Assembly: GCA_018654125.1 (NCBI GenBank)
Contig: JABIME010000054.1
Location: 1-17,932, forward strand
Direction of reading: 5' to 3'
DNA from: Candidatus Cloacimonadota bacterium
Lineage (GTDB): Bacteria; Cloacimonadota; Cloacimonadia; Cloacimonadales; TCS61
DNA: 17,932 bases
The position numbers were made by a program, and so were the translations under genes. This document shows positions 7,040 through 17,777 of this stretch, one piece after another; the stretch's first letter is position 1, and the number at the start of each line of letters is the position of its first letter. The notes below the pieces were generated by a model. It did not search any database. It was not told the DNA's origin and worked only from the letters and a program-made list of their open reading frames with translations.

Positions 7040-7095
7040 CGTTTTTTTAAATTACCACTTTGTCATCCAAAAATAATGAATACTGGAGAAAATCA

Positions 7096-8415
7096 ATGAG
7101 TAAAAAAATAACTATCTTCGGAGCAGGACTCGTAGTAAAACCAATGGTCGATTATCTAGCTAAAAAAGGTTATGAAGTAACCATTGCCAGCCGTACATTA
7201 AGCAAGGCAGAAAAACTTGCAGAACCACATCCAAAAGCAACTGCAGCACAATTTTTAAGTAATGATGAAGCAGCAATGGAAAAATTCGTTAAAGAAAGTG
7301 ATCTGGTTGTTAGCTTACTTCCGGCAACACTTCATGTAGAAGTTGCTAAAAAATGTATCGAATTTAAAACAAATATGGTCACAACTTCATACATTAGTCC
7401 AGCAATGCGAGAATTAGATCAACAAGCAAAAGATGCAGGAATTATAATTCTTAATGAAATTGGTGTAGATCCCGGAATCGATCATATGAGCGCTATGAAG
7501 ATTTTCCATCATGTAGAAAAAGAAGGTGGAAAAATTGTTAGCTTTATGAGTTATTGTGGTGGTCTTCCAGCTCCAGAAGCAAATACGAATCCACTCGGTT
7601 ACAAATTCTCTTGGGCACCAAAAGGTGTTCTAAAAGCAGCTGGGAATGGTGCGAAATTCATGAAAGATGGTGAGATCATTGATGTCGAAGGACCAGAACT
7701 TTTCAATAATTACTGGTTCGTTGATGTAGAAGGTGCTGGCACACTGGAAGCTTATCCAAATCGTAATTCACTTGATTATATCGATCTTTATGATCTGAAA
7801 GATGTTAAAACAATGTATCGTGGAACTTTTAGAAATGTTAGTCATTGTAATACATGGTATACAATGTCTCAAATGGGATTTTATAAAGAAGATGAAATAT
7901 TTGATAATTTAACAGGTACTGTAAAAGAATTCATCCTCACTAAAATGTTCAAAGCAGATAAAAATAAATGTCTTAAAGAACTTTTAATGGAAAAATATAA
8001 TCTTCCAGCAGAAAGTGTGATCCTGAAGAAATTTGAATGGCTTGGATTCTTTGATGAAACTCCAATTCCAATTACTAAAGGTGGTGCAGTTGACGTTCTT
8101 ACCGCTATCATGCTAGATAAAATGTCATACGGAGAAGGTGAAAGAGACCTGCTGGTTCTTCATCACAAATTTGTAGCCAAATATCCAAATAAAACTCAAA
8201 ACATTACATCAACAATGATAGATTACGGAATTCCAAATGGTGATTCTTCAATGGCAAGAACTGTTTCTCTTCCTGCAGCGATCGGAGTTCATATGATACT
8301 TCAGGGTGAAATCACCGTAAAAGGTGTTTATATGCCAACATTACCAAATATTTATAATCCTGTTCTTAAAGAATTAGAAAATCTTGATATTAAACTTATT
8401 GAAAGATTTTATTGA
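7096..8415 (+). CDS. Saccharopine dehydrogenase (glutamate-forming)
   Basis: A 439-residue enzyme that oxidises saccharopine to glutamate plus 2-aminoadipate 6-semialdehyde. A Rossmann domain opens the protein (TIFGAGLVVKPMVDYL, residues ~5-20), followed by ASRTLSKAEKLA, and then family signatures LLPATLH, NEIGVDPGIDHM and YCGGLPAPEANTNPLGYKFSW. This matches the SDH half of animal and plant AASS and the stand-alone Lys9-type enzyme. I chose ATG 7096, 7 bases after GGAG; a TTG 36 bases upstream has no such support. It is the first of seven collinear catabolic genes, but a terminator-like hairpin follows it. The reaction is reversible and Lys9 is biosynthetic in fungi; the CoA-transferase and thiolase neighbours argue for degradation. 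Confidence 0.93.
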   Translation: MSKKITIFGAGLVVKPMVDYLAKKGYEVTIASRTLSKAEKLAEPHPKATAAQFLSNDEAAMEKFVKESDLVVSLLPATLHVEVAKKCIEFKTNMVTTSYISPAMRELDQQAKDAGIIILNEIGVDPGIDHMSAMKIFHHVEKEGGKIVSFMSYCGGLPAPEANTNPLGYKFSWAPKGVLKAAGNGAKFMKDGEIIDVEGPELFNNYWFVDVEGAGTLEAYPNRNSLDYIDLYDLKDVKTMYRGTFRNVSHCNTWYTMSQMGFYKEDEIFDNLTGTVKEFILTKMFKADKNKCLKELLMEKYNLPAESVILKKFEWLGFFDETPIPITKGGAVDVLTAIMLDKMSYGEGERDLLVLHHKFVAKYPNKTQNITSTMIDYGIPNGDSSMARTVSLPAAIGVHMILQGEITVKGVYMPTLPNIYNPVLKELENLDIKLIERFY

Positions 8416-8449
8416 TCTAAAGAAATGAGAATTTAATATGATTACAATG

Positions 8450-8477
8450 CGTTCCTAAGCCTTCTTAGGAACGTTTT
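8450..8477 (+). terminator. Terminator-like hairpin between the SDH and LKR genes
   Basis: A perfect 10-base-pair stem (CGTTCCTAAG with CTTAGGAACG) closes a CCTT loop and is followed by TTTTGT. The short T tract suggests partial termination, which would set lower expression of the downstream genes or act as a processing site. It sits within 100 bases of the next start codon. Confidence 0.65.
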
Positions 8478-8513
8478 GTACAAATAGCATCTTGTTGTAA
8501 TTTAAGGAGAAAA

Positions 8514-9815
8514 ATGAAAACGATAGGAATAGTAAAAGAAACAAAAAATAAATGGGAACGAAGAGTACCTTTGAATCCAATTGCAGTTCAAGAGTTGATA
8601 AATAAAGGTTTTGGTGTAACAATTCAACCATCTGAAAACAGAATATACAAAGATGAAGAATATACTTCTGTTGGTGCAAAACTTTCTGATGATCTTTCTC
8701 AATGTGATTTCATAATTGGAGTAAAAGAGATCTATCAAAAAGATCTTATACCCGGCAAACCTCATTTGTTTTTTTCACACGTTATCAAAGGTCAGGATTA
8801 CAACATGCCTAACCTACAGCATATTCTGGATACGAAAGTAACACTTCTTGATTATGAAAAAATTGAAGATGATAAAAACAGAAGACTCGTTTTCTTTGGA
8901 AAATTTGCAGGTGATGCGGGAATGATTGACACGCTTCATGGATTAGGGAAAAGACTCAAACAATATTATAATATTGAAACACCGTTCTTAAAAGTAAAAC
9001 ACTCTTATCAGTATGAGTCAGTTCAAGATGCGATTGATCAAATTAGTATTATTGGAAAAGAGATCGAGCAGAATGGACTTCCTAAAGAAATAACACCACT
9101 CAATATTTTCCTTTTGGGATACGGTCATGTGGCACAAGGATGTAAGGAAATTTTAACAGCCATGCCAATTGTGGAAATTGCTCCCGATGAGTTAGAAAAA
9201 CATTCTCAGAATTACAAAGATAACAAAATTTATCTTACTGTTTTTAAAGAAGAACATTTAGTAGAAAGAAAAGACGGTGGAGATTTTTCGCTTCACGACT
9301 ATTTTATTAACAATTCAGCATATAAATCTCGTTTAGAGCAGTACCTTAAACATTGCAGTATTTATATGAATGCAATTTATTGGACTCCTGACTGCCCGGT
9401 TTTTCTTCCAAATTCCTATTTAAAAAAGATTCAGAATAAAGACCCTAAACTTATCATTATTGGTGACATCACTTGTGATATTGAGGGATCTGTTCAGGCA
9501 ACAGTTAAACCAACTTGGCCAGATAATCCGGTATTTGTCTACAATACGGAAACCAAAAAAGAGAAAGATGGTTATACTGGTGAAGGATTTGCTATAATGG
9601 CAGTTGATAATCTACCTTGTGAATTCCCTAAAGAAGCGTCAGATACATTTTCAAGTTCTTTAATGCCATTTATGCAACAAATACTGAATAATGATTATTC
9701 TAAGCCTATCAATGAATCAACTCTTCCAGCAGAGATAAAATCTGCCTGCATTACACATCAAGGTAAATTGGAAGAAAATTTTAGATACCTTAAAGAATTT
9801 ATAAAATTAATATAA
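8514..9815 (+). CDS. Lysine-ketoglutarate reductase (saccharopine-forming), AASS N-terminal-half homologue
   Basis: A 433-residue enzyme that condenses lysine with 2-oxoglutarate and reduces the product to saccharopine with NAD(P)H. The N-terminus (GIVKETKNKWERRVPLNP) and residues ~85-145 (FFSHVIKGQ, NMPNL, LLDYEKI, RRLVFFGKFAGDAGMIDTLHGLG) follow the LKR domain of eukaryotic AASS closely. The nucleotide-binding loop is GYGHVAQG at 202-209. The C-terminal part keeps ITCDIEGSVQATVKPT and MAVDNLPCEFPKEAS, also typical of LKR. AAGGAG lies 4 bases upstream of the start. In animals and plants LKR and SDH are one polypeptide; here they are separate and in reverse gene order. The following aminomutase gene begins 13 bases after its stop. 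Confidence 0.92.
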   Translation: MKTIGIVKETKNKWERRVPLNPIAVQELINKGFGVTIQPSENRIYKDEEYTSVGAKLSDDLSQCDFIIGVKEIYQKDLIPGKPHLFFSHVIKGQDYNMPNLQHILDTKVTLLDYEKIEDDKNRRLVFFGKFAGDAGMIDTLHGLGKRLKQYYNIETPFLKVKHSYQYESVQDAIDQISIIGKEIEQNGLPKEITPLNIFLLGYGHVAQGCKEILTAMPIVEIAPDELEKHSQNYKDNKIYLTVFKEEHLVERKDGGDFSLHDYFINNSAYKSRLEQYLKHCSIYMNAIYWTPDCPVFLPNSYLKKIQNKDPKLIIIGDITCDIEGSVQATVKPTWPDNPVFVYNTETKKEKDGYTGEGFAIMAVDNLPCEFPKEASDTFSSSLMPFMQQILNNDYSKPINESTLPAEIKSACITHQGKLEENFRYLKEFIKLI

Positions 9816-9828
9816 TATAGGAGTAGTT

Positions 9829-11436
9829 ATGGCTACAATTCAAGATGCAATTCAAGAGAATCCTGATTCAATAAATTCCATTAATAAAATTGATATTCAA
9901 GATTCTGATGTTAAGAAAATGATGGATCGTTATCATTTTTCTGATGACATAAAAAGTAACATTGAGCAAGAAAATCTTCTACCTGCTGGTGTGTTATCAA
10001 GATTACATTCCTGCTTTCCACATCATTCAGGTATTATGGAAACCAACGAATTCTTATTTACCGGTAAAGAGCATTATGCAGGATTAAACGGATTCAGGGA
10101 AATCGTTGAGACTTTAAGCAAAAATGGAATCGATATTGGACATATAAAAGCGAGAGAATTTTTTATTGAAGTTTACCGCTTTTTAGCAACCAAGCACGTT
10201 CTAAACACAATTAATTGGAATGATTTTGCAAATGATTCACTCTTCCAACTTGTTTTCCCACAACCAGAAATGATACAGGCTGATGCTGTAAAATTATACC
10301 TTGATGCTAAAACAGATGATGAAAGAAAAACAGTTGTTAACGAATATATGAAAGAGACAAATCCTCACGATGGAAATCAATTATTAAATAAACCATGGTT
10401 CAAAAATGAAGATGGTGAATTAGAAATTCTTGATGGTTGTCAGCATAAATATCCACAATGTATTCTTCTTTTTGATAAAACAACACAAAGTTGTTTTTCA
10501 TTCTGTACATATTGTTTCCGTCATGCTCAGGTTCGTGGTGATGAAGATATGTTCATTCAAAGAGAAATTAAGCAAGTTCACGATTACTTAGAATTACATA
10601 CAGAAATTACAGACGTGCTTATGACCGGTGGAGATGCAGGACAAATGAGCTATGAAAGATTAGAACAATATGTTCTTCCATTAATAGAGAATCCAAAACT
10701 AATGCATATTAGAACTTTACGTTTAGGAACAAGAGCACTTACTTTTGCTCCTGAAATGATCTTGGACAATAAATATAATAAATTTTTAGATCTTTTAAGA
10801 AAATTAAATAATAATGGTGTTCAGGTTGTATGGATGGCACATATTTCTACCCCTAGAGAACTTATGAATATTAGCACAATAGCAGCTGTTCGCAGACTTC
10901 GTTCTGCTGGGATAGTTATAAAAAGCCAAAGCCCGATCATGAATCATATCAGCCTTTTTACAGATGAGAATGGCAAAGTTGATGTTGATCGCTCTGCCCA
11001 AAACTGGATTGATCTTGGAAATATTCTCGCAATATTATCTATTGGTTTCCACTCAATGTATTGTGCACGTCCAACCGGTGAACATCACTATTTCACAGTA
11101 CCAGTTGCAGATATCAATGTTGTTTTCAGTAAAGTTTATAGATCTTTACCTTCAATAAACCGTCCTTCAAGATATATTACAATGACATCATCTGCAGGAA
11201 AGATCTCGCTACTGGGAACTGTTGAGGTTAATGGAGAAACTGCCTTTGCTCTTAAATTTAATGAAGCCAGGAATATGAAGTGGATGGACAAAGTTTTCTT
11301 AACAAAGTATGATGAAATAGAGAACACAATTGCAAATCTAAAACCTCTTGATACTAAGAAACACTTCTATGAAGATGATCTAAAAAATGCTGAAAGTTCT
11401 CTTCAAAAAACTTTAGAGAAAAGATTAAAAAAATAA
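9829..11436 (+). CDS. KamA-family radical SAM 2,3-aminomutase, predicted to act on 2-aminoadipate
   Basis: A 535-residue PLP- and SAM-dependent aminomutase of the lysine 2,3-aminomutase family. The [4Fe-4S] motif CX3CX2C is at Cys222, Cys226 and Cys229. The SAM-binding GGD is at 267-269, and the PLP lysine aligns to Lys458 in SSAGK. Arg231 aligns with the Arg that holds the substrate alpha-carboxylate. The two Asp residues binding the side-chain amine of lysine (293 and 330 in the clostridial enzyme) are absent: Ala413 followed by Arg414, and Thr451. Glutamate 2,3-aminomutase also replaces both, so a side-chain carboxylate substrate is likely. The N-terminus is about 100 residues longer than in clostridial KamA. 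No kamDE or kdd/kce genes follow; beta-ketoadipate enzymes do. Family certain, substrate inferred. ATAGGAG precedes the start. Confidence 0.9.
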   Translation: MATIQDAIQENPDSINSINKIDIQDSDVKKMMDRYHFSDDIKSNIEQENLLPAGVLSRLHSCFPHHSGIMETNEFLFTGKEHYAGLNGFREIVETLSKNGIDIGHIKAREFFIEVYRFLATKHVLNTINWNDFANDSLFQLVFPQPEMIQADAVKLYLDAKTDDERKTVVNEYMKETNPHDGNQLLNKPWFKNEDGELEILDGCQHKYPQCILLFDKTTQSCFSFCTYCFRHAQVRGDEDMFIQREIKQVHDYLELHTEITDVLMTGGDAGQMSYERLEQYVLPLIENPKLMHIRTLRLGTRALTFAPEMILDNKYNKFLDLLRKLNNNGVQVVWMAHISTPRELMNISTIAAVRRLRSAGIVIKSQSPIMNHISLFTDENGKVDVDRSAQNWIDLGNILAILSIGFHSMYCARPTGEHHYFTVPVADINVVFSKVYRSLPSINRPSRYITMTSSAGKISLLGTVEVNGETAFALKFNEARNMKWMDKVFLTKYDEIENTIANLKPLDTKKHFYEDDLKNAESSLQKTLEKRLKK

Positions 11437-11467
11437 TCATTCAATCAATTTCAAGGGAGAATAATTA

Positions 11468-12184
11468 ATGATTAATAAAATTGTAAATTCAGCTGCAGAA
11501 GCTGTTGCAGATATTTTCGATGGTGCTGTAGTATTAATAGGTGGATTCGGTGAGGCAGGTAGCCCTATCGAATTGATACATGCACTGATCGATCATGGCG
11601 CAAAAGATCTTACTGTTGTTAGCAATAATACAGGAAGCGGTCATGTTGGTTTAGCAGCACTTATAGAGAATAAACAGGTAAAAAAAATGATCTGTTCATT
11701 TCCAAGAACTGCTAATTCCACAGTTTTCCCTGATCTATATTATAAAAAAGAGATAGAACTTGAGCTTGTTCCACAAGGTTCTCTTGCAGAACGTATAAGA
11801 GCTGGCGGAGCAGGTATTCCTGCATTCTATACTCCAAGCTCTGTAAATACTCCGTTAGCAGAAGGAAAAGAGTCTCGTGTTTTTGATGGAAAAACTTATG
11901 TGATGGAACATGCAATAAAAGCAGACTTTTCATTGGTTAAATGCAAAGCTGCAGATAGATATGGAAATTTAATATATAGTAAAACTGCCCGAAATTTTGG
12001 ACCTATCATGTGTACAGCCGCAAAAACAACTATTGTTCAAGCAAATAAAATAGTTGAACCCGGAGAGATAGACCCGGAGATCGTTGTAACTCCCGGGATC
12101 TTTGTAACACGAGTTGTAGAAGTTACAAATCCGGAAGCTGAATCTAAACTTGTAGCGGAAGACAGGAGGTATCCATGCCAATAA
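11468..12184 (+). CDS. pcaI: 3-oxoadipate CoA-transferase, subunit A (PcaI-like)
   Basis: A 238-residue alpha subunit of a family I CoA-transferase, predicted to move CoA from succinyl-CoA to 3-oxoadipate. The CoA-binding loop GGFGEAG is at 25-31. The stretches VVSNNTGSGHVGLAALI, KKMICSFPRTANSTVFPDLY, ARNFGPIMCTAAKTTI and EPGEIDPEIVVTPGIFV track PcaI of Pseudomonas, as I recall it, more closely than acetoacetate-specific AtoD or SCOT. GGGAG precedes the start. The 3' end overlaps the beta-subunit start by 10 bases, the usual arrangement for coupled subunits. PcaIJ normally belongs to aromatic degradation, but no aromatic genes are present here. A related 3-oxoacid substrate cannot be excluded. 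Confidence 0.88.
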   Translation: MINKIVNSAAEAVADIFDGAVVLIGGFGEAGSPIELIHALIDHGAKDLTVVSNNTGSGHVGLAALIENKQVKKMICSFPRTANSTVFPDLYYKKEIELELVPQGSLAERIRAGGAGIPAFYTPSSVNTPLAEGKESRVFDGKTYVMEHAIKADFSLVKCKAADRYGNLIYSKTARNFGPIMCTAAKTTIVQANKIVEPGEIDPEIVVTPGIFVTRVVEVTNPEAESKLVAEDRRYPCQ

Positions 12185-12831
12185 CAGATAAGAAAATTGG
12201 ATGGGATCGAAATCAAATGGCACAAAAAGCTGCTCTTGATATTCCCGATGGAGCCTATGTGAACCTAGGAATTGGTATGCCAGAATTAGTTGCAGACTTC
12301 GTTCCCGAAGGAAGAGAAGTTATCTATCATACAGAAAATGGTTTACTTGGAATGGGAAGTGTTCCAGAAAGCGGAAAAGAAGATCCAGAATTGATTAATG
12401 CAGGAAAGAAATGTATTACAGCAATTCCAGGAGCTTGTTTTTTTCATCATGCCGATAGTTTTACAATGATCCGCGGTAGCCATATAGATATTTGTGTTTT
12501 AGGAGCAATGCAGGTTTCTGCAGAAGGGGATCTGGCTAATTGGTCTACAGGTAAACCAGGTGCAATTCCTGCGGTTGGTGGAGCGATGGATCTGGTTGCT
12601 GGTGTTAAAACGATATTTGTAATAACTCAGCATATCACAAAACATGGTGATCCAAAGATAATTGAAAAATGCACCTTTCCTCTTACTGGAAAAGGTGTTG
12701 TTGATAGAATTTATAGTAATCTTGCTATACTTGATGTTACAGAAAATGGCCTCTTTGTAAGAGAGCTTGCACCTGATGTAACTTTTGAATATCTACAGCA
12801 AAATACCGGTGCAAAATTGAATCAGTATTAA
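12175..12831 (+). CDS. pcaJ: 3-oxoadipate CoA-transferase, subunit B (PcaJ-like)
   Basis: A 218-residue beta subunit carrying the catalytic Glu54 in the ENGLLG motif, which forms the glutamyl-CoA intermediate. NLGIGMPELVADF (~30-42) is the usual beta-subunit opening. FFHHADSFTMIRGSHID, GDLANWSTG and IPAVGGAMDLVAGVK follow PcaJ closely; SCOT-type B subunits differ in the HHADSF and ANW stretches. A strong AGGAGGT (12164-12170) lies inside the alpha-subunit gene, and the two frames overlap by 10 bases, so expression is coupled. It acts with the alpha subunit and just before the thiolase in the proposed route. The substrate call is from sequence pattern and context, not measured. Confidence 0.9.
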   Translation: MPITDKKIGWDRNQMAQKAALDIPDGAYVNLGIGMPELVADFVPEGREVIYHTENGLLGMGSVPESGKEDPELINAGKKCITAIPGACFFHHADSFTMIRGSHIDICVLGAMQVSAEGDLANWSTGKPGAIPAVGGAMDLVAGVKTIFVITQHITKHGDPKIIEKCTFPLTGKGVVDRIYSNLAILDVTENGLFVRELAPDVTFEYLQQNTGAKLNQY

Positions 12832-12870
12832 AATATTGTTATCTGATCTTATGGAGGATTAATTAGCATT

Positions 12871-14217
12871 ATGAATAATAATATAAATTCTAAAGAGCAA
12901 AAACACACAAGTGAAGAGATATATAAACAAGCTTGTAATGTGCTTCCCGGTGGTGTAAGTAGAAATACTATTTTTAGGAAGCCACATCCATTTTATGTTT
13001 CAAATGCCTCGGGATGTCATGTTACTGATATTGATGGTATTCAACGAATTGATTTCGCAAATAATATGGCATCTTTGATCCATGGTCATGCAAATCCGCA
13101 GATCGTTGAAGCAGTTATAGAGCAATTAAAAAAAGGAACTGCCTACACAATGGCAACTGAAGCTGAAGTTGCTTTTGCACAATTACTGTGTAACAGAGTA
13201 CCTAATTTTGATAAAATTCGTTTTATGAATTCAGGAACTGAAGCAGTTATGGCAATGATCAAAGCTTCTAGGGCTTATACCAGCAGACCAAAAATTGCCA
13301 AAGCAGAAGGCGCATATCATGGAACTTACGACTTTGCAGAAGTAAGCCAAACAGCCAACCCTACAAATTGGGGAGGCATAAACAAACCCAATAGTGTTCC
13401 ACTTGCTAATGGTACTCCGCAAAGTGTTTTAGATGATGTAATCATTTTCCCATTTAATGATATTGAGAGAACTATTTCTATTTTAGATGAGCATGCTAAT
13501 GACATAGCCTGCATTTTAATTGATCCTGTTCCACATAGAGTCGGGCTTATTCAAGCGCATACAGATTTTGTAGAAGCTATGTACAATTGGACTCGCAAAA
13601 ATGGCGCACTGCTTGTATTTGATGAAGTTGTAACTCTACGCGTAAATTATAGTGGTACACAAAATGATTATTCAGCAAAACCGGATCTTACTGCAATGGG
13701 AAAAATGATAGGTGGCGGATTTCCTGTGGGAGCTCTTGCAGGAAGAGCTGATGTAATGAAAGTACTCGACCCAAGCGAAAGCAAACTTCTCTTTCCTCAT
13801 TCAGGTACTTTTTCTGCAAATCCAATAACCATGACAGCAGGACGTATTGCCATGGAATTATTTGATGAAGATGCTGTTATAAAATTAAATGCATTAGCTC
13901 AAAAAGCAATCAGTCAAATTAGTGAAGCGATAAAACTTGTTGATGTTCCGATTTCTATTACCGGTGCCGGCTCGATGTTCCGCATACATCTAACAGCAAC
14001 ACCACCAACAACTTACCGTGAAGCATTCCAAACTAAAGAAAAGACAATGTTAATAAAAAAATTACTCGACTATCTTTTTATAAACGAAAGAATCATGATG
14101 GTTAACACTTGCACTTGCATGTTTTCAACTGCTATCACACAGAAGGAAGTTGATATACTTTCAGATGCAATGTTCAACGGGTTTAAACTAATAAAACCAG
14201 AACTTGAAAATATTTAA
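12871..14217 (+). CDS. Class III PLP aminotransferase, beta-amino-acid type (predicted 3-aminoadipate aminotransferase)
   Basis: A 448-residue fold-type I enzyme of the glutamate-1-semialdehyde aminomutase-like group. The PLP lysine is Lys278 in TAMGKMIGGG, Asp251 in LVFDEVV holds the pyridine nitrogen, and MNSGTEA (119-125) binds phosphate. A generic call would be HemL, but PGGVSRNTIF aligns without gaps to PGANSRSVLF of the Variovorax beta-phenylalanine aminotransferase, whose Arg41 (here Arg31) binds the beta-amino-acid carboxylate. The region GALAGRADVMKVLDP...HSGTFSANPITMTAG is also shared. No other heme genes are near. It would convert 3-aminoadipate plus 2-oxoglutarate to 3-oxoadipate plus glutamate. 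GGAGG (12853-12857) lies 13 bases upstream of the ATG, an unusually long spacer. Family firm, substrate inferred. Confidence 0.87.
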   Translation: MNNNINSKEQKHTSEEIYKQACNVLPGGVSRNTIFRKPHPFYVSNASGCHVTDIDGIQRIDFANNMASLIHGHANPQIVEAVIEQLKKGTAYTMATEAEVAFAQLLCNRVPNFDKIRFMNSGTEAVMAMIKASRAYTSRPKIAKAEGAYHGTYDFAEVSQTANPTNWGGINKPNSVPLANGTPQSVLDDVIIFPFNDIERTISILDEHANDIACILIDPVPHRVGLIQAHTDFVEAMYNWTRKNGALLVFDEVVTLRVNYSGTQNDYSAKPDLTAMGKMIGGGFPVGALAGRADVMKVLDPSESKLLFPHSGTFSANPITMTAGRIAMELFDEDAVIKLNALAQKAISQISEAIKLVDVPISITGAGSMFRIHLTATPPTTYREAFQTKEKTMLIKKLLDYLFINERIMMVNTCTCMFSTAITQKEVDILSDAMFNGFKLIKPELENI

Positions 14218-14231
14218 TTTGAGGTAAAATT

Positions 14232-15434
14232 ATGACAGAAGTATTTATTTGTGATGCAATTAGAACACCTGTAGGGAAATTTGGCGGTACTCTTTCATCT
14301 ATCAGACCAGATGATCTGGGTGCGGTCCCACTAAAAGAAATTGTAAGAAGAAACCCAAATGTTGACTGGCTTGCAGTTAATGATGTTCTTATGGGATGTG
14401 CTAATCAAGCTGGAGAAGATAATCGAAATGTTGCCAGAATGTCTTCCCTACTTGCAGGTTTTTCCGATACTATCCCAGGCTCTACAATAAACAGACTTTG
14501 CGGTTCGGGAATGGATGCGATTGGCACTGCTGCCAGAGCTATTAAAGCTGGTGAAGCAGATTTGATAATTGCTGGTGGAATTGAGAGTATGTCGCGTGCA
14601 CCGTATGTTATGGGAAAACCATTAGCGGCTTTTTCTAGAGCTCCGGAAGTACATGATACAACTATTGGTTGGCGTTTTATTAACAAAGTTTTCAATAAAA
14701 AATTTGGTACAGATCCATTGATAATGACTGCAGAAAATATAGCAAAAGAGCACAATATTAGTCGTGAAGATCAAGATAAATTTGCTCATTGGAGCCAGCA
14801 AAAGGCAAATAATGCTCAAAACAATGGTTTGTTAGCAGAAGAAATTGTCCCCGTTACAATTCCACAACGCAAAGGGGATCCGATAATATTTGATAAAGAT
14901 GAACATCCCAGATTGAGCTCACTCGAAAAATTAGCATCTTTAAGAGTTTTAACAGGTGAAAATGGAACTATTACTGCCGGTAATGCTTCCGGTATTAACG
15001 ATGGAGCTGCAGCACTGATTATAGCCTCAAAAAGTGCGGTTAAGAAATATGGATTAATTCCAAAAGTTAGAATTCTTGGAATGGATGTGGCAGGCGTTCC
15101 ACCACGCATCATGGGAATGGGACCTGTTCCAGCTACTACCAAGTTATTCAAACGTTTAGGGCTAACATTTGATGATATGGATATTATAGAGCTTAATGAA
15201 GCTTTTGCTTCACAATCGTTAGGCTGTACTAGAGAATTTGGTCTTAAAGATGATGACCCAAGAATAAATCAATTAGGTGGAGCTATAGCTCTTGGACATC
15301 CGCTTGGAATGAGTGGTGCCAGATTAGTTACAACAGCATTTTATCAAATGATGCGAACAGATGCAAAAAAGGCTCTTTGTACTATGTGTATAGGAGTTGG
15401 ACAAGGCATTGCAACGGTGCTCGAAAAAGTATAA
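14232..15434 (+). CDS. pcaF: 3-oxoadipyl-CoA thiolase (PcaF-like)
   Basis: A 400-residue thiolase that would cleave 3-oxoadipyl-CoA with CoA to succinyl-CoA and acetyl-CoA. Active-site residues are complete: nucleophile Cys90 (NRLCGSGMDA), NEAF at 322-325, His356 (GHPLGMSG) and Cys386 (CIGVG). Features typical of PcaF/PaaJ rather than acetoacetyl-CoA thiolase include EVFICDAIRTPVGKFGG, a PNVDW segment, GCANQAGEDNRNVARM and TTIGWRFIN (143-151). A GAGG precedes the start by about 7 bases. It is the last gene of the catabolic set and is followed by a strong terminator. Together with PcaIJ it forms the lower beta-ketoadipate pathway, here placed with lysine genes instead of aromatic genes. Confidence 0.93.
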   Translation: MTEVFICDAIRTPVGKFGGTLSSIRPDDLGAVPLKEIVRRNPNVDWLAVNDVLMGCANQAGEDNRNVARMSSLLAGFSDTIPGSTINRLCGSGMDAIGTAARAIKAGEADLIIAGGIESMSRAPYVMGKPLAAFSRAPEVHDTTIGWRFINKVFNKKFGTDPLIMTAENIAKEHNISREDQDKFAHWSQQKANNAQNNGLLAEEIVPVTIPQRKGDPIIFDKDEHPRLSSLEKLASLRVLTGENGTITAGNASGINDGAAALIIASKSAVKKYGLIPKVRILGMDVAGVPPRIMGMGPVPATTKLFKRLGLTFDDMDIIELNEAFASQSLGCTREFGLKDDDPRINQLGGAIALGHPLGMSGARLVTTAFYQMMRTDAKKALCTMCIGVGQGIATVLEKV

Positions 15435-15557: not shown

Positions 15558-17777
15558 ATGGAAAATGAAATTAATGTTGATAATAATAATATCCCTGTTG
15601 TAGAAAAATTTGGCACATTTTTAGGTGTTTATACGCCAAGTGTTCTCACAATTCTCGGGCTTGTAATGTATCTCCGTTTTGGTTGGGTTATTGGGAATGT
15701 AGGTCTCGGATTTACATTGTTTATAGTATTACTAGCCAGTTCAATAACCTTCATTACTGCACTCAGTGCTTCGGCTATCGCTACAAATATGCGTGTTGGA
15801 GTTGGTGGAGAATACTATATGATCTCCCGCAGTTTAGGTTTAGAGCTTGGTGGTGCAATTGGAATTCCGCTCTACTTATGCAGAACACTAAGCATAACAT
15901 TTTACAGCTTTGGTTTAGCAGAAGCAATAGGAATGTTTGTTCCGGGTGAACCTTCAGCACAAATGATACAGCTTATTGCTGTCATTATAATAGTAGGAAT
16001 CACAATCCTTTCCGGTAAAAGTGCTGGACTTGTGCTTAAATTACAGATCCCTATCTTAATTGCAGTTGGGTTATCTGTTGTTGCGTTACTTATTGGTGTT
16101 TTATCTGGAGGGTTTCACTCTCCGGAAATGACAACTACTTTCCGAACAGCGCCAAAAGGTTTCTGGTATGTTTTTGCAGTTTTCTTCCCGGCAGTAACAG
16201 GCTTCACAGCCGGTATTGGCATGAGTGGCGACCTTAAGGATCCACGTAAATCGATACCTAAAGGAACAATTTTAGCAGTTGCCACAGGTACATTTCTCTA
16301 TCTTCTTATTCCTGTTTTTCTTGCTATAACCACCAAAATCAATCCCGAAGGTTTAGCTAATGGCGGAGTAGAAACTTGGAGTAAAATCGCTCTTCTTGGT
16401 TCGATACTAGTTGTTCCTGGTATTTTTGGAGCTATTCTTTCATCAGCTTTTGGAAGTGTACTTGGAGGTCCACGAGTTTTGCAGTCACTTGCACAAGATA
16501 GGCTTGCACCATCTTTTTTGGCAAAACTTTCTAAAACCGGACAACCAACGATTTCTACATGGATCAGTGGAGTAATTGCTCTTATTGCAGTTGCTCTTGG
16601 AGACCTTAATGCTGTCGCACAATTCGTAACAATTCTCTTCTTAACACTTTATGTAATGATAAATTTTAGTGCAGCATTGGAAAATCTAACAGGTGATGCT
16701 TCTTATAGGCCAAAGGTTAAAGTTCCCTGGTTTGTATCATTGCTTGGCTCATTCGGAGCAATTGCAGTAATGTTCCTTATAAATCCTATAGCATGTATTT
16801 TTGCGGTAATTTTTGAAGTCATTTTATTCTGGATCTTACGAAAGCGCTCAATGCGTAAAGAGTGGGGAGATGTAAGAGCTGGATTTTGGGGAACCCTTGC
16901 ACGCTTTGCTCTTCTTAAATTAAAAAAACATGATAACGATCCACGTAATTGGCGTCCTAACATTTTAGTTTTTGCTGGTGATTTGAACAAGCGACTGCCA
17001 CTTGTACAACTTGCTAATTTTTTAAATCAACGTCGTGGAATTTTAACCGTTTGCAATATGATAATAGGTGATATAAAGAAAGGTGAGATCGACCTGAAAA
17101 AAGAAGTGCAAAAAATGGATGAAACACTTGATAGAGCTGGTATTCAAGCTTTCAACGAAATCGATGTTGTTTCTAAATTTGAAAGCGGAACAATAAATAT
17201 TACTCAAGCAAACGGTATTGCAGGACTCCATTCTAATACAATAATGTTTGGATGGTCAGATAAACAAAAACGCATGATTTCAATGCTTAAAACCATTAGA
17301 ACAATATCTGGGCTACAGAAGAGTTCATTACTTGTGAGGATAAATGTGTTACCAGAAATTTCTGGTAGGAACAGAATGGATATTTGGTGGCGTGGTAAGC
17401 ATAGTAATGGAGATTTAATGCTATTATTAGCTCATCTTCTAAGCATTAATGATGAATGGAAAAATGCTAGTATCATCATTCATACAATTATCTTACGAGA
17501 AGAAGATCGTGAATTCATGTTAGAGAATGTGACTGAAATGATTAATGAAGTTAGAATTAAAGCAGAACCAAGAATTATAATTAAACCTAGTGATAAATCT
17601 ATCACTGAAGTAATTCATGAAAACAGTCGTAGTGCAAACCTGGTATTTATGGGATTAAAATTACCTCAAGAGGGTGAAGAGAAAGATTACGTGAATAGGC
17701 TGGAAGAACTTTCTGATGGTCTTAAAACCACAATTTTTGTACGTAATTCAGAAGAATTCGCAGGTGAGATGATCTAG
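15558..17777 (+). CDS. Cation-chloride cotransporter-like (SLC12/APC superfamily) permease with C-terminal cytoplasmic domain
   Basis: A 739-residue transporter. Residues ~15-430 contain about 12 membrane segments; the opening KFGTFLGVYTPSVLTILG and YLRFGWVIGNVG, and FPAVTGFTAGIGMSGDLKDPRKSIPKGT, are signatures of the SLC12 (NKCC/KCC) branch of the APC superfamily. Residues ~465-739 form a cytoplasmic domain beginning NWRPNILVF. It contains DIWWRGKHSNGDLMLLLAHLL, similar to the eukaryotic CCC tail, and ends in a UspA-like segment (SANLVFMGLKLP). Eukaryotic members move Na+, K+ and Cl-; bacterial members are poorly characterised and may carry ions or amino acids. The gene follows the lysine operon but is separated by a terminator and has its own promoter, so a role in lysine uptake is only a possibility. 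Confidence 0.87.
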   Translation: MENEINVDNNNIPVVEKFGTFLGVYTPSVLTILGLVMYLRFGWVIGNVGLGFTLFIVLLASSITFITALSASAIATNMRVGVGGEYYMISRSLGLELGGAIGIPLYLCRTLSITFYSFGLAEAIGMFVPGEPSAQMIQLIAVIIIVGITILSGKSAGLVLKLQIPILIAVGLSVVALLIGVLSGGFHSPEMTTTFRTAPKGFWYVFAVFFPAVTGFTAGIGMSGDLKDPRKSIPKGTILAVATGTFLYLLIPVFLAITTKINPEGLANGGVETWSKIALLGSILVVPGIFGAILSSAFGSVLGGPRVLQSLAQDRLAPSFLAKLSKTGQPTISTWISGVIALIAVALGDLNAVAQFVTILFLTLYVMINFSAALENLTGDASYRPKVKVPWFVSLLGSFGAIAVMFLINPIACIFAVIFEVILFWILRKRSMRKEWGDVRAGFWGTLARFALLKLKKHDNDPRNWRPNILVFAGDLNKRLPLVQLANFLNQRRGILTVCNMIIGDIKKGEIDLKKEVQKMDETLDRAGIQAFNEIDVVSKFESGTINITQANGIAGLHSNTIMFGWSDKQKRMISMLKTIRTISGLQKSSLLVRINVLPEISGRNRMDIWWRGKHSNGDLMLLLAHLLSINDEWKNASIIIHTIILREEDREFMLENVTEMINEVRIKAEPRIIIKPSDKSITEVIHENSRSANLVFMGLKLPQEGEEKDYVNRLEELSDGLKTTIFVRNSEEFAGEMI

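Follow-up and report, generated by a model that had tools for sequence, protein, structure and literature searches.

The window, a stretch of 17,932 nucleotides covering positions 1 to 17,932 of contig JABIME010000054.1 (assembly GCA_018654125.1, Candidatus Cloacimonadota bacterium), carries a cluster of seven genes at positions 7096–15434 that probably encodes a lysine catabolic route ending in the lower β-ketoadipate pathway. The genes encode a saccharopine dehydrogenase (SDH), a lysine-ketoglutarate reductase (LKR), a long protein of the KamA superfamily (KAM), two CoA-transferase subunits (PcaI and PcaJ), an aminotransferase (AT), and a thiolase (PcaF). The initial annotation had listed seven collinear genes of these families, and this description holds: all seven open reading frames (ORFs) in the ORF list are intact, closely set, and on the + strand, and the families were confirmed by matches in PDB, Pfam, and NCBIfam (Table 1).

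In the proposed route, LKR would convert lysine and 2-oxoglutarate to saccharopine, from which SDH would form 2-aminoadipate semialdehyde and glutamate. Oxidation of the semialdehyde to 2-aminoadipate would depend on a dehydrogenase encoded outside the window, which in many relatives may be an ALDH7-type L-piperidine-6-carboxylate dehydrogenase, and in anaerobes such as Cloacimonadota possibly an aldehyde:ferredoxin oxidoreductase (AOR). KAM is predicted to shift the amino group from C2 to C3, yielding 3-aminoadipate, which AT would convert to 3-oxoadipate; fold, active site, type of aminotransferase, and genomic context all point to these two steps. Judging from the enzyme families, PcaIJ would then activate 3-oxoadipate with succinyl-CoA, and PcaF would cleave 3-oxoadipyl-CoA to acetyl-CoA and succinyl-CoA, so that the released succinyl-CoA could serve the transferase. 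The parts are of known kinds, and the route is likely a new pathway; to our knowledge, the known lysine routes (glutaryl-CoA, cadaverine, aminovalerate, and clostridial β-lysine) bypass 3-aminoadipate.

The conservation of the gene cluster was assessed by scanning for KAM with one genome per species. A relative was encoded in 246 genomes, and 80 of the 246 loci were kept. KAM, PcaI, PcaJ, AT, and PcaF occur in the same order and on one strand in all 56 loci that reach at least 5.5 kb past KAM, with median gaps of 24.5, −4, 35.5, and 15 bases. The other 24 loci end at a contig edge; five of these contain all five genes and 16 contain some, while three stop at most 201 bases from KAM. According to their records, the bearers include Cloacimonadota, many Bacteroidota, Edwardsbacteria, Krumholzibacteriia, Shewanella, Pseudoalteromonas, Photobacterium, and Motiliproteus. 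Because this order is constant while the genes upstream vary, those scanned often being unrelated, five genes make up the real unit, a module to which the SDH–LKR pair is attached in Cloacimonadota. The co-occurrence check suggested in the initial annotation thus speaks for the proposal, in that the module holds together across phyla and is joined to lysine genes in two lineages, although LKR and SDH are not part of the core.

The physical linkage to lysine genes takes different forms. In the window and in the Cloacimonadota locus L001, SDH–LKR lies immediately upstream of KAM, and in L003 one peptidase-like gene stands between them. In loci L036, L039, and L058, PcaF is followed by ALDH7 and then SDH, and the genome of L052 has a separate contig beginning at PcaF that reads PcaF, ALDH, SDH; an additional SDH gene lies divergently upstream in L052 and L058. 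The L036 aldehyde dehydrogenase exceeds the NCBIfam cut-off for L-piperidine-6-carboxylate dehydrogenase (803 versus 730) and matches AASADH/Pcd structures, and the linked enzymes of L039, L058, and the L052 genome are 83–95% identical to it. Hence, the semialdehyde oxidation, which had been singled out at the outset as the step without an enzyme in the window, has a module-linked enzyme in these relatives. Away from the module, ALDH7 is found beside LKR in three genomes, as LKR–SDH–ALDH7 in L146 and as ALDH7–LKR in L145 and L147; at the remaining ALDH7 loci that were fetched, save L152, LKR and SDH were not nearby.

KAM has a radical S-adenosylmethionine (SAM) fold of the type seen in lysine 2,3-aminomutase (LAM), with the CxxxCxxC motif, the pyridoxal phosphate (PLP) lysine, and the SAM- and PLP-binding residues retained. 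In a PDB search, the only credible solved relative was LAM (2a5h, 9.1e-14), three designed repeat proteins being short and weak matches. The nearest named relatives, 86% identical, come from Candidatus Cloacimonadota metagenome-assembled genomes (MAGs). KAM matched six KamA-type NCBIfam models but scored far under the cut-off of every one, including those for the KamA family (TIGR00238, 81.2 versus 199.2 bits), LAM (TIGR03820, 71.9 versus 525.4), and glutamate 2,3-aminomutase (TIGR04368, 58.8 versus 650). We take Asp293 and Asp330 of LAM to be the acidic pair that binds the ε-amino group of lysine. Both positions are lost in KAM, where they align to Ala413 (with Arg414 adjacent) and Thr451, and an invariant Arg is found at or beside one of them.

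These features bear on whether KAM could itself be a lysine 2,3-aminomutase, in which case β-lysine would be converted via 3-oxo-6-aminohexanoate to 4-aminobutyryl-CoA and acetyl-CoA, with LKR and SDH acting separately. The fold and cofactor residues would fit, and one source annotates KAM relatives as lysine 2,3-aminomutase. Nevertheless, we consider this explanation very unlikely, and a classical β-lysine fermentation disfavored, given the model scores, the loss of both aligned lysine-binding Asp positions, and the presence in G004 and G006 of a distinct LAM gene that exceeds the cut-off, besides the module; a LAM function would also give the linked SDH and ALDH7 nothing to do in the cluster. 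The module's own KAM is the sole KamA-type match in G001, a close genome. A shorter KamA cousin of about 450 residues is common in Bacteroidota, as seen in the phylum and order samples; the seven members aligned have an Arg next to the Asp293 position and lack the Asp pair. The module was not seen around this short protein in nine loci from nine genomes (L137–L144 and L148, 5–9 kb on each side), and we therefore regard the two as separate systems. In five of the nine loci, the short protein has a related gene of about 155 residues close by.

The nearest solved relative of AT is 6k8h (3.2e-114), which we take to act on β-amino acids; the β-transaminases 2yku (4.0e-57) and 4ao9 (1.2e-55) stand lower in the list, and at least 97% of 62 relatives retain Arg31. 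PcaI and PcaJ, whose ORFs overlap by 10 bases, score above the cut-offs of TIGR02429 (pcaI_scoA; 343.7 versus 128.5 bits) and TIGR02428 (pcaJ_scoB; 298.3 versus 243.55), and PcaI matches a succinyl-CoA:3-ketoacid transferase (3cdk). PcaJ Glu54, presumably the catalytic residue, lies in an ENGLLG stretch, and at least 97% of 63 relatives retain it. PcaF exceeds the 3-oxoadipyl-CoA thiolase equivalog cut-off (TIGR02430, 646.9 versus 597 bits) and the cut-off of NF006551 (673.4 versus 605), is 61% identical to Escherichia coli PaaJ, has the β-ketoadipyl-CoA thiolase 6pca as its second-best PDB relative (1.4e-159), and is conserved along the module (60 sequences).

PcaIJF usually catalyze the last steps of the aromatic β-ketoadipate pathway, and the PcaI and PcaJ models include Sco-type transferases. 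PcaIJF could therefore serve aromatic degradation or acetoacetate use, with the other genes being unrelated neighbors; we give this the lowest probability of the explanations considered here, since the module is fixed in every one of the 56 long loci and an intradiol dioxygenase (PF00775) is over the cut-off in only four of 50 module genomes. It is below the cut-off in one more, and the window's own genome lies outside this set. The dioxygenase count disfavors aromatic degradation as the general role of PcaIJF, extradiol and phenylacetate routes being outside the survey. Queries with PaaA and PaaH against part of the G001 genome gave no match.

Genome-wide searches were run for 50 of the 80 loci; L008, L014, L016, L022, L030, L066, L077, and L079 were excluded before any result was known, as were 22 others, some but not all of which lie on short contigs. 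Absences in these 50 genomes are soft because genome completeness is not given. LKR (E ≤ 1e-25) was found in 36 and SDH (E ≤ 1e-79) in 34, with both present in 33. Every one of these 33 has ALDH7 (20 genomes) or AOR (PF01314; 23 genomes), AOR being present in all 13 that lack ALDH7. In total, ALDH7 occurs in 27 of the 50. Two matches of the LKR search weaker than E 1e-25 are of the yeast Lys1 type. G005 (Shewanella) and G183 (Pseudoalteromonas) have such a saccharopine dehydrogenase, of the lysine-forming kind (G005 copy, 3.2e-93; G183 copy, 70% identical to it), beside an SDH-type enzyme (3.5e-44); the Lys1-type enzyme is a distant LKR relative that would here be put to degradative use. In L165 and L166, from the same two genera, the pair is divergent from a fusion of an APH-kinase-like protein with a class III aminotransferase and from an NhaC-type antiporter. 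Finally, G163 (Balneolaceae) and G195 (Chlorobiaceae) are without LKR and SDH and have ALDH7 together with a lysine 6-aminotransferase over the cut-off, a combination in which the two genes are 2.5 kb apart in G195; this aminotransferase was over the cut-off in two of the 18 module genomes searched. The same intermediate can thus be fed by three front ends, of which one has no kinship with the other two, and this argues that the module takes 2-aminoadipate. In G174, G076, and G177 alike, a single in-frame stop codon interrupts the LKR match, possibly reflecting assembly error, decay, or recoding.

Based on these data, we see about an even chance of a broader picture, namely that the module represents a further lysine route spread over multiple phyla, in which a 2-aminoadipate 2,3-aminomutase forms a new radical SAM class that channels an amino acid backbone into the β-ketoadipate pathway, the module plugs into the front end of its host and takes over 2-aminoadipate from it (lysine aminotransferase, the AASS type, or the Lys1 type combined with SDH), and the module of anaerobes is coupled to a tungsten- or molybdenum-dependent aldehyde oxidoreductase, with reduced ferredoxin formed as the semialdehyde is oxidized.

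As a control, we used 198 genomes from the same order as G181, in which 16 genomes with a long KAM were set apart by a break in scores (E 1e-123 to 1e-88). LKR was present in 15 of the 16 module genomes and in 97 of the 182 others (Fisher p 0.0012, in a test that ignores ancestry). Among 148 genomes from the same phylum as G004, 42 had LKR and two had a long KAM.

The direction of the pathway was judged from the permease-type gene that follows the cluster, from the oxidative character of the ALDH7 partner family, and from the occurrence of DapA- and LysA-like genes in G001, a near relative, all of which point to catabolism. The steps are formally reversible, and the closest PDB relative of SDH is a saccharopine reductase (1e5l, 2.1e-95) that we take to be a fungal, biosynthetic enzyme, with the SDH domain of human AASS (5l78, 5.1e-82; also 5l76) matched as well. 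A new biosynthesis in which acetyl-CoA and succinyl-CoA are converted via 3-oxoadipate and 2-aminoadipate to lysine, by means of AOR or a reductase and SDH/LKR, is therefore conceivable. We regard it as improbable, a shade more so than a LAM function of KAM, given the three observations above and the fact that the thiolase condensation is strongly uphill. The G001 result refers to the 1.07 of approximately 1.8 Mb that was examined, in which DapB was not found. For LKR, the closest solved relative is the LKR domain of human AASS (8dda, 1.2e-70), well ahead of the yeast Lys1-type 3ugk (2.5e-17); the closest solved relatives of the window's pair are thus AASS LKR and glutamate-forming SDH.

The lysine route via 3-aminoadipate, as proposed in the initial annotation, remains the best-supported reading in view of the module and its lysine linkage, but it is only partly supported because its substrates are predicted, LKR and SDH mostly lie elsewhere in the 50 genomes, nine of these (G155, G159, G178, G185, G186, G190, G191, G192, and G193) have no recognized LKR/SDH, Lys1-type pair, or lysine 6-aminotransferase, and the semialdehyde step in Cloacimonadota has no assigned enzyme. 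Several further observations weigh against it. LKR occurs without SDH in G156, G166, and G167, and SDH without LKR in G196. The presence of LKR in 97 of 182 module-free genomes implies that LKR serves another purpose too and proves nothing alone. ALDH7 was not enriched in the order control (five of 16 module genomes versus 50 of 182 others, p 0.77, again ignoring ancestry), so that the control gave no support for ALDH7 as a uniform partner of the module, and the ALDH7–SDH linkage comes from one lineage, since L036, L039, L052, and L058 (Prolixibacteraceae, Draconibacterium, Maribellus, and one Bacteroidota) probably belong together. A search of two Cloacimonadota genomes for ALDH7 gave no match, and neither ALDH7 nor AOR was found in G005 and G183 at the thresholds used. 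AOR is widespread, being present also in five of 14 control genomes, and its presence is therefore weak evidence that makes it a candidate only for semialdehyde oxidation in Cloacimonadota. As for the individual enzymes, the first Asp of LAM aligns to either Ala413 or Arg414 of KAM with an uncertainty of one residue, the loop beside Arg414 is modeled at a predicted local distance difference test score (pLDDT) below 50, and the models and PDB matches that place PcaI and PcaJ in the PcaI/J–Sco subfamilies do not distinguish transferases for 3-oxoadipate from those for acetoacetate.

The genomes without a recognized lysine feed could also mean that the substrate of the module is a different 2-amino dicarboxylate, such as glutamate, which would be converted via 3-aminoglutarate and 3-oxoglutarate to malonyl-CoA and acetyl-CoA, the proximity of lysine genes being incidental. 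3-Aminoglutarate (β-glutamate) is an osmolyte, Shewanella, Pseudoalteromonas, and Photobacterium, all genera common in the sea, are among the bearers, and a KAM active site with Arg and no Asp pair suits any ω-carboxylate. We nevertheless consider this explanation unlikely, since PcaF, conserved along the module, exceeds the 3-oxoadipyl-CoA thiolase equivalog cut-off and two lineages link the module, in differing arrangements, to genes for the conversion of lysine to 2-aminoadipate.

Table 1. Features of the cluster and the transporter gene that follows it
Feature	Positions	Strand	Matches
SDH, saccharopine dehydrogenase, L-glutamate-forming (AASS SDH-domain type)	7096..8415	+	PF16653, PF03435; 1e5l, 5l78
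LKR, lysine-ketoglutarate reductase (AASS LKR-domain type), separate ORF	8514..9815	+	PDB 8dda
KAM, long KamA-superfamily radical SAM/PLP protein, 535 residues, proposed 2-aminoadipate 2,3-aminomutase	9829..11436	+	
PcaI/ScoA-type 3-oxoacid CoA-transferase subunit A, proposed succinyl-CoA:3-oxoadipate CoA-transferase	11468..12184	+	TIGR02429, PDB 3cdk
PcaJ/ScoB-type 3-oxoacid CoA-transferase subunit B	12175..12831	+	TIGR02428
AT, class III aminotransferase, proposed 3-aminoadipate:2-oxoacid aminotransferase	12871..14217	+	PF00202, PDB 6k8h
PcaF, 3-oxoadipyl-CoA thiolase	14232..15434	+	TIGR02430, NF006551, PDB 6pca
SLC12/APC-type transporter	15558..17777	+	PF00324, PF03522; TIGR00930 396.6 bits, below cut-off

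For SDH, the ORF tool takes a TTG at 7060 as the start, and an in-frame ATG is found at 7096. The SLC12/APC-type gene, which the initial annotation did not mention, continues the cluster and again follows PcaF in L001 and L003, the two long loci from Cloacimonadota; it likely belongs to the cluster in this phylum, where it may function in uptake. In L003, the permease is followed by a second saccharopine-dehydrogenase-like protein (positions 12990–14111, 374 residues) that is 28% identical to the window SDH and meets no NCBIfam cut-off. Elsewhere in the window, a gene for the tRNA 2-selenouridine synthase MnmH (positions 1890–2918, above the equivalog cut-off) suggests that the organism uses selenium. 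Among the other loci, a 4HBT-type thioesterase of about 135 residues adjoins the module in L074 (positions 9155–9565), L063, L069, and L072, the L074 copy having been scanned and the others recognized by similarity; the arrangement resembles that of the PaaI thioesterase next to PaaJ in E. coli. In addition, L074 carries a gene for a BCCT transporter upstream and one for a class I aminotransferase downstream. In L050, from a MAG titled Aliivibrio sp. (NORP241), the module is next to a LysR-type gene belonging to the group also seen in the Shewanella loci; searches of this genome for LKR, SDH, ALDH7, and AOR gave no match, and the Aliivibrio label or the binning may be wrong.

Lysine catabolism is considered well mapped, and the proposed route, if true, would add a new aminomutase activity. 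It would also account for pcaIJF-type genes in genomes without intradiol ring cleavage and provide many uncultured bacteria with a balanced conversion of lysine to acetyl-CoA and succinyl-CoA that avoids glutaryl-CoA. A 2-aminoadipate aminomutase could help in making 3-oxoadipate or adipate precursors from lysine. A search of the open-access literature found no description of the KAM subfamily or of a route via 3-aminoadipate; text matching of “2,3-aminomutase” was possibly incomplete, and the novelty is provisional. Terms of the 3-aminoadipate type occurred in a reference title on a β-lactam precursor (PMC9854754) and in connection with meteorite amino acids (PMC5428853), and synthetic pathways were the context in PMC8706239.

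The proposed route combines features of several known systems. It resembles saccharopine degradation (AASS, ALDH7A1) as far as 2-aminoadipate, with LKR and SDH in the window and ALDH7 in relatives. The known saccharopine route continues by 2-oxoadipate and glutaryl-CoA, whereas the continuation here would proceed via 3-aminoadipate and 3-oxoadipate. The CoA-transferase and 3-oxoadipyl-CoA thiolase are shared with the lower β-ketoadipate pathway (PcaIJF), although 3-oxoadipate would derive from an amino acid and not from ring cleavage. With LAM (KamA, 2a5h), KAM shares the radical SAM and PLP fold, the cysteine motif, the PLP lysine, an Arg two residues past the third Cys, and the predicted 2,3-amino shift; it differs in its low identity (approximately 20%), its additional length of more than 100 residues, its scores below the six KamA-type cut-offs, its lack of a conserved Asp pair, and its gene neighborhood. 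Glutamate 2,3-aminomutase, which presumably has Lys and Asn at the two Asp positions of LAM, is likewise a KamA-type enzyme acting on a 2-amino dicarboxylate, as proposed for KAM, but KAM falls far below the corresponding model cut-off. Scanning of 15 window proteins gave no match to the later enzymes of clostridial lysine fermentation. That fermentation (KamA, KamDE, Kdd, and Kce) opens with a radical SAM 2,3-shift (PMC8473912). The proposed route would use such a shift as well, but with 2-aminoadipate as the substrate and with removal of the β-amino group by transamination.

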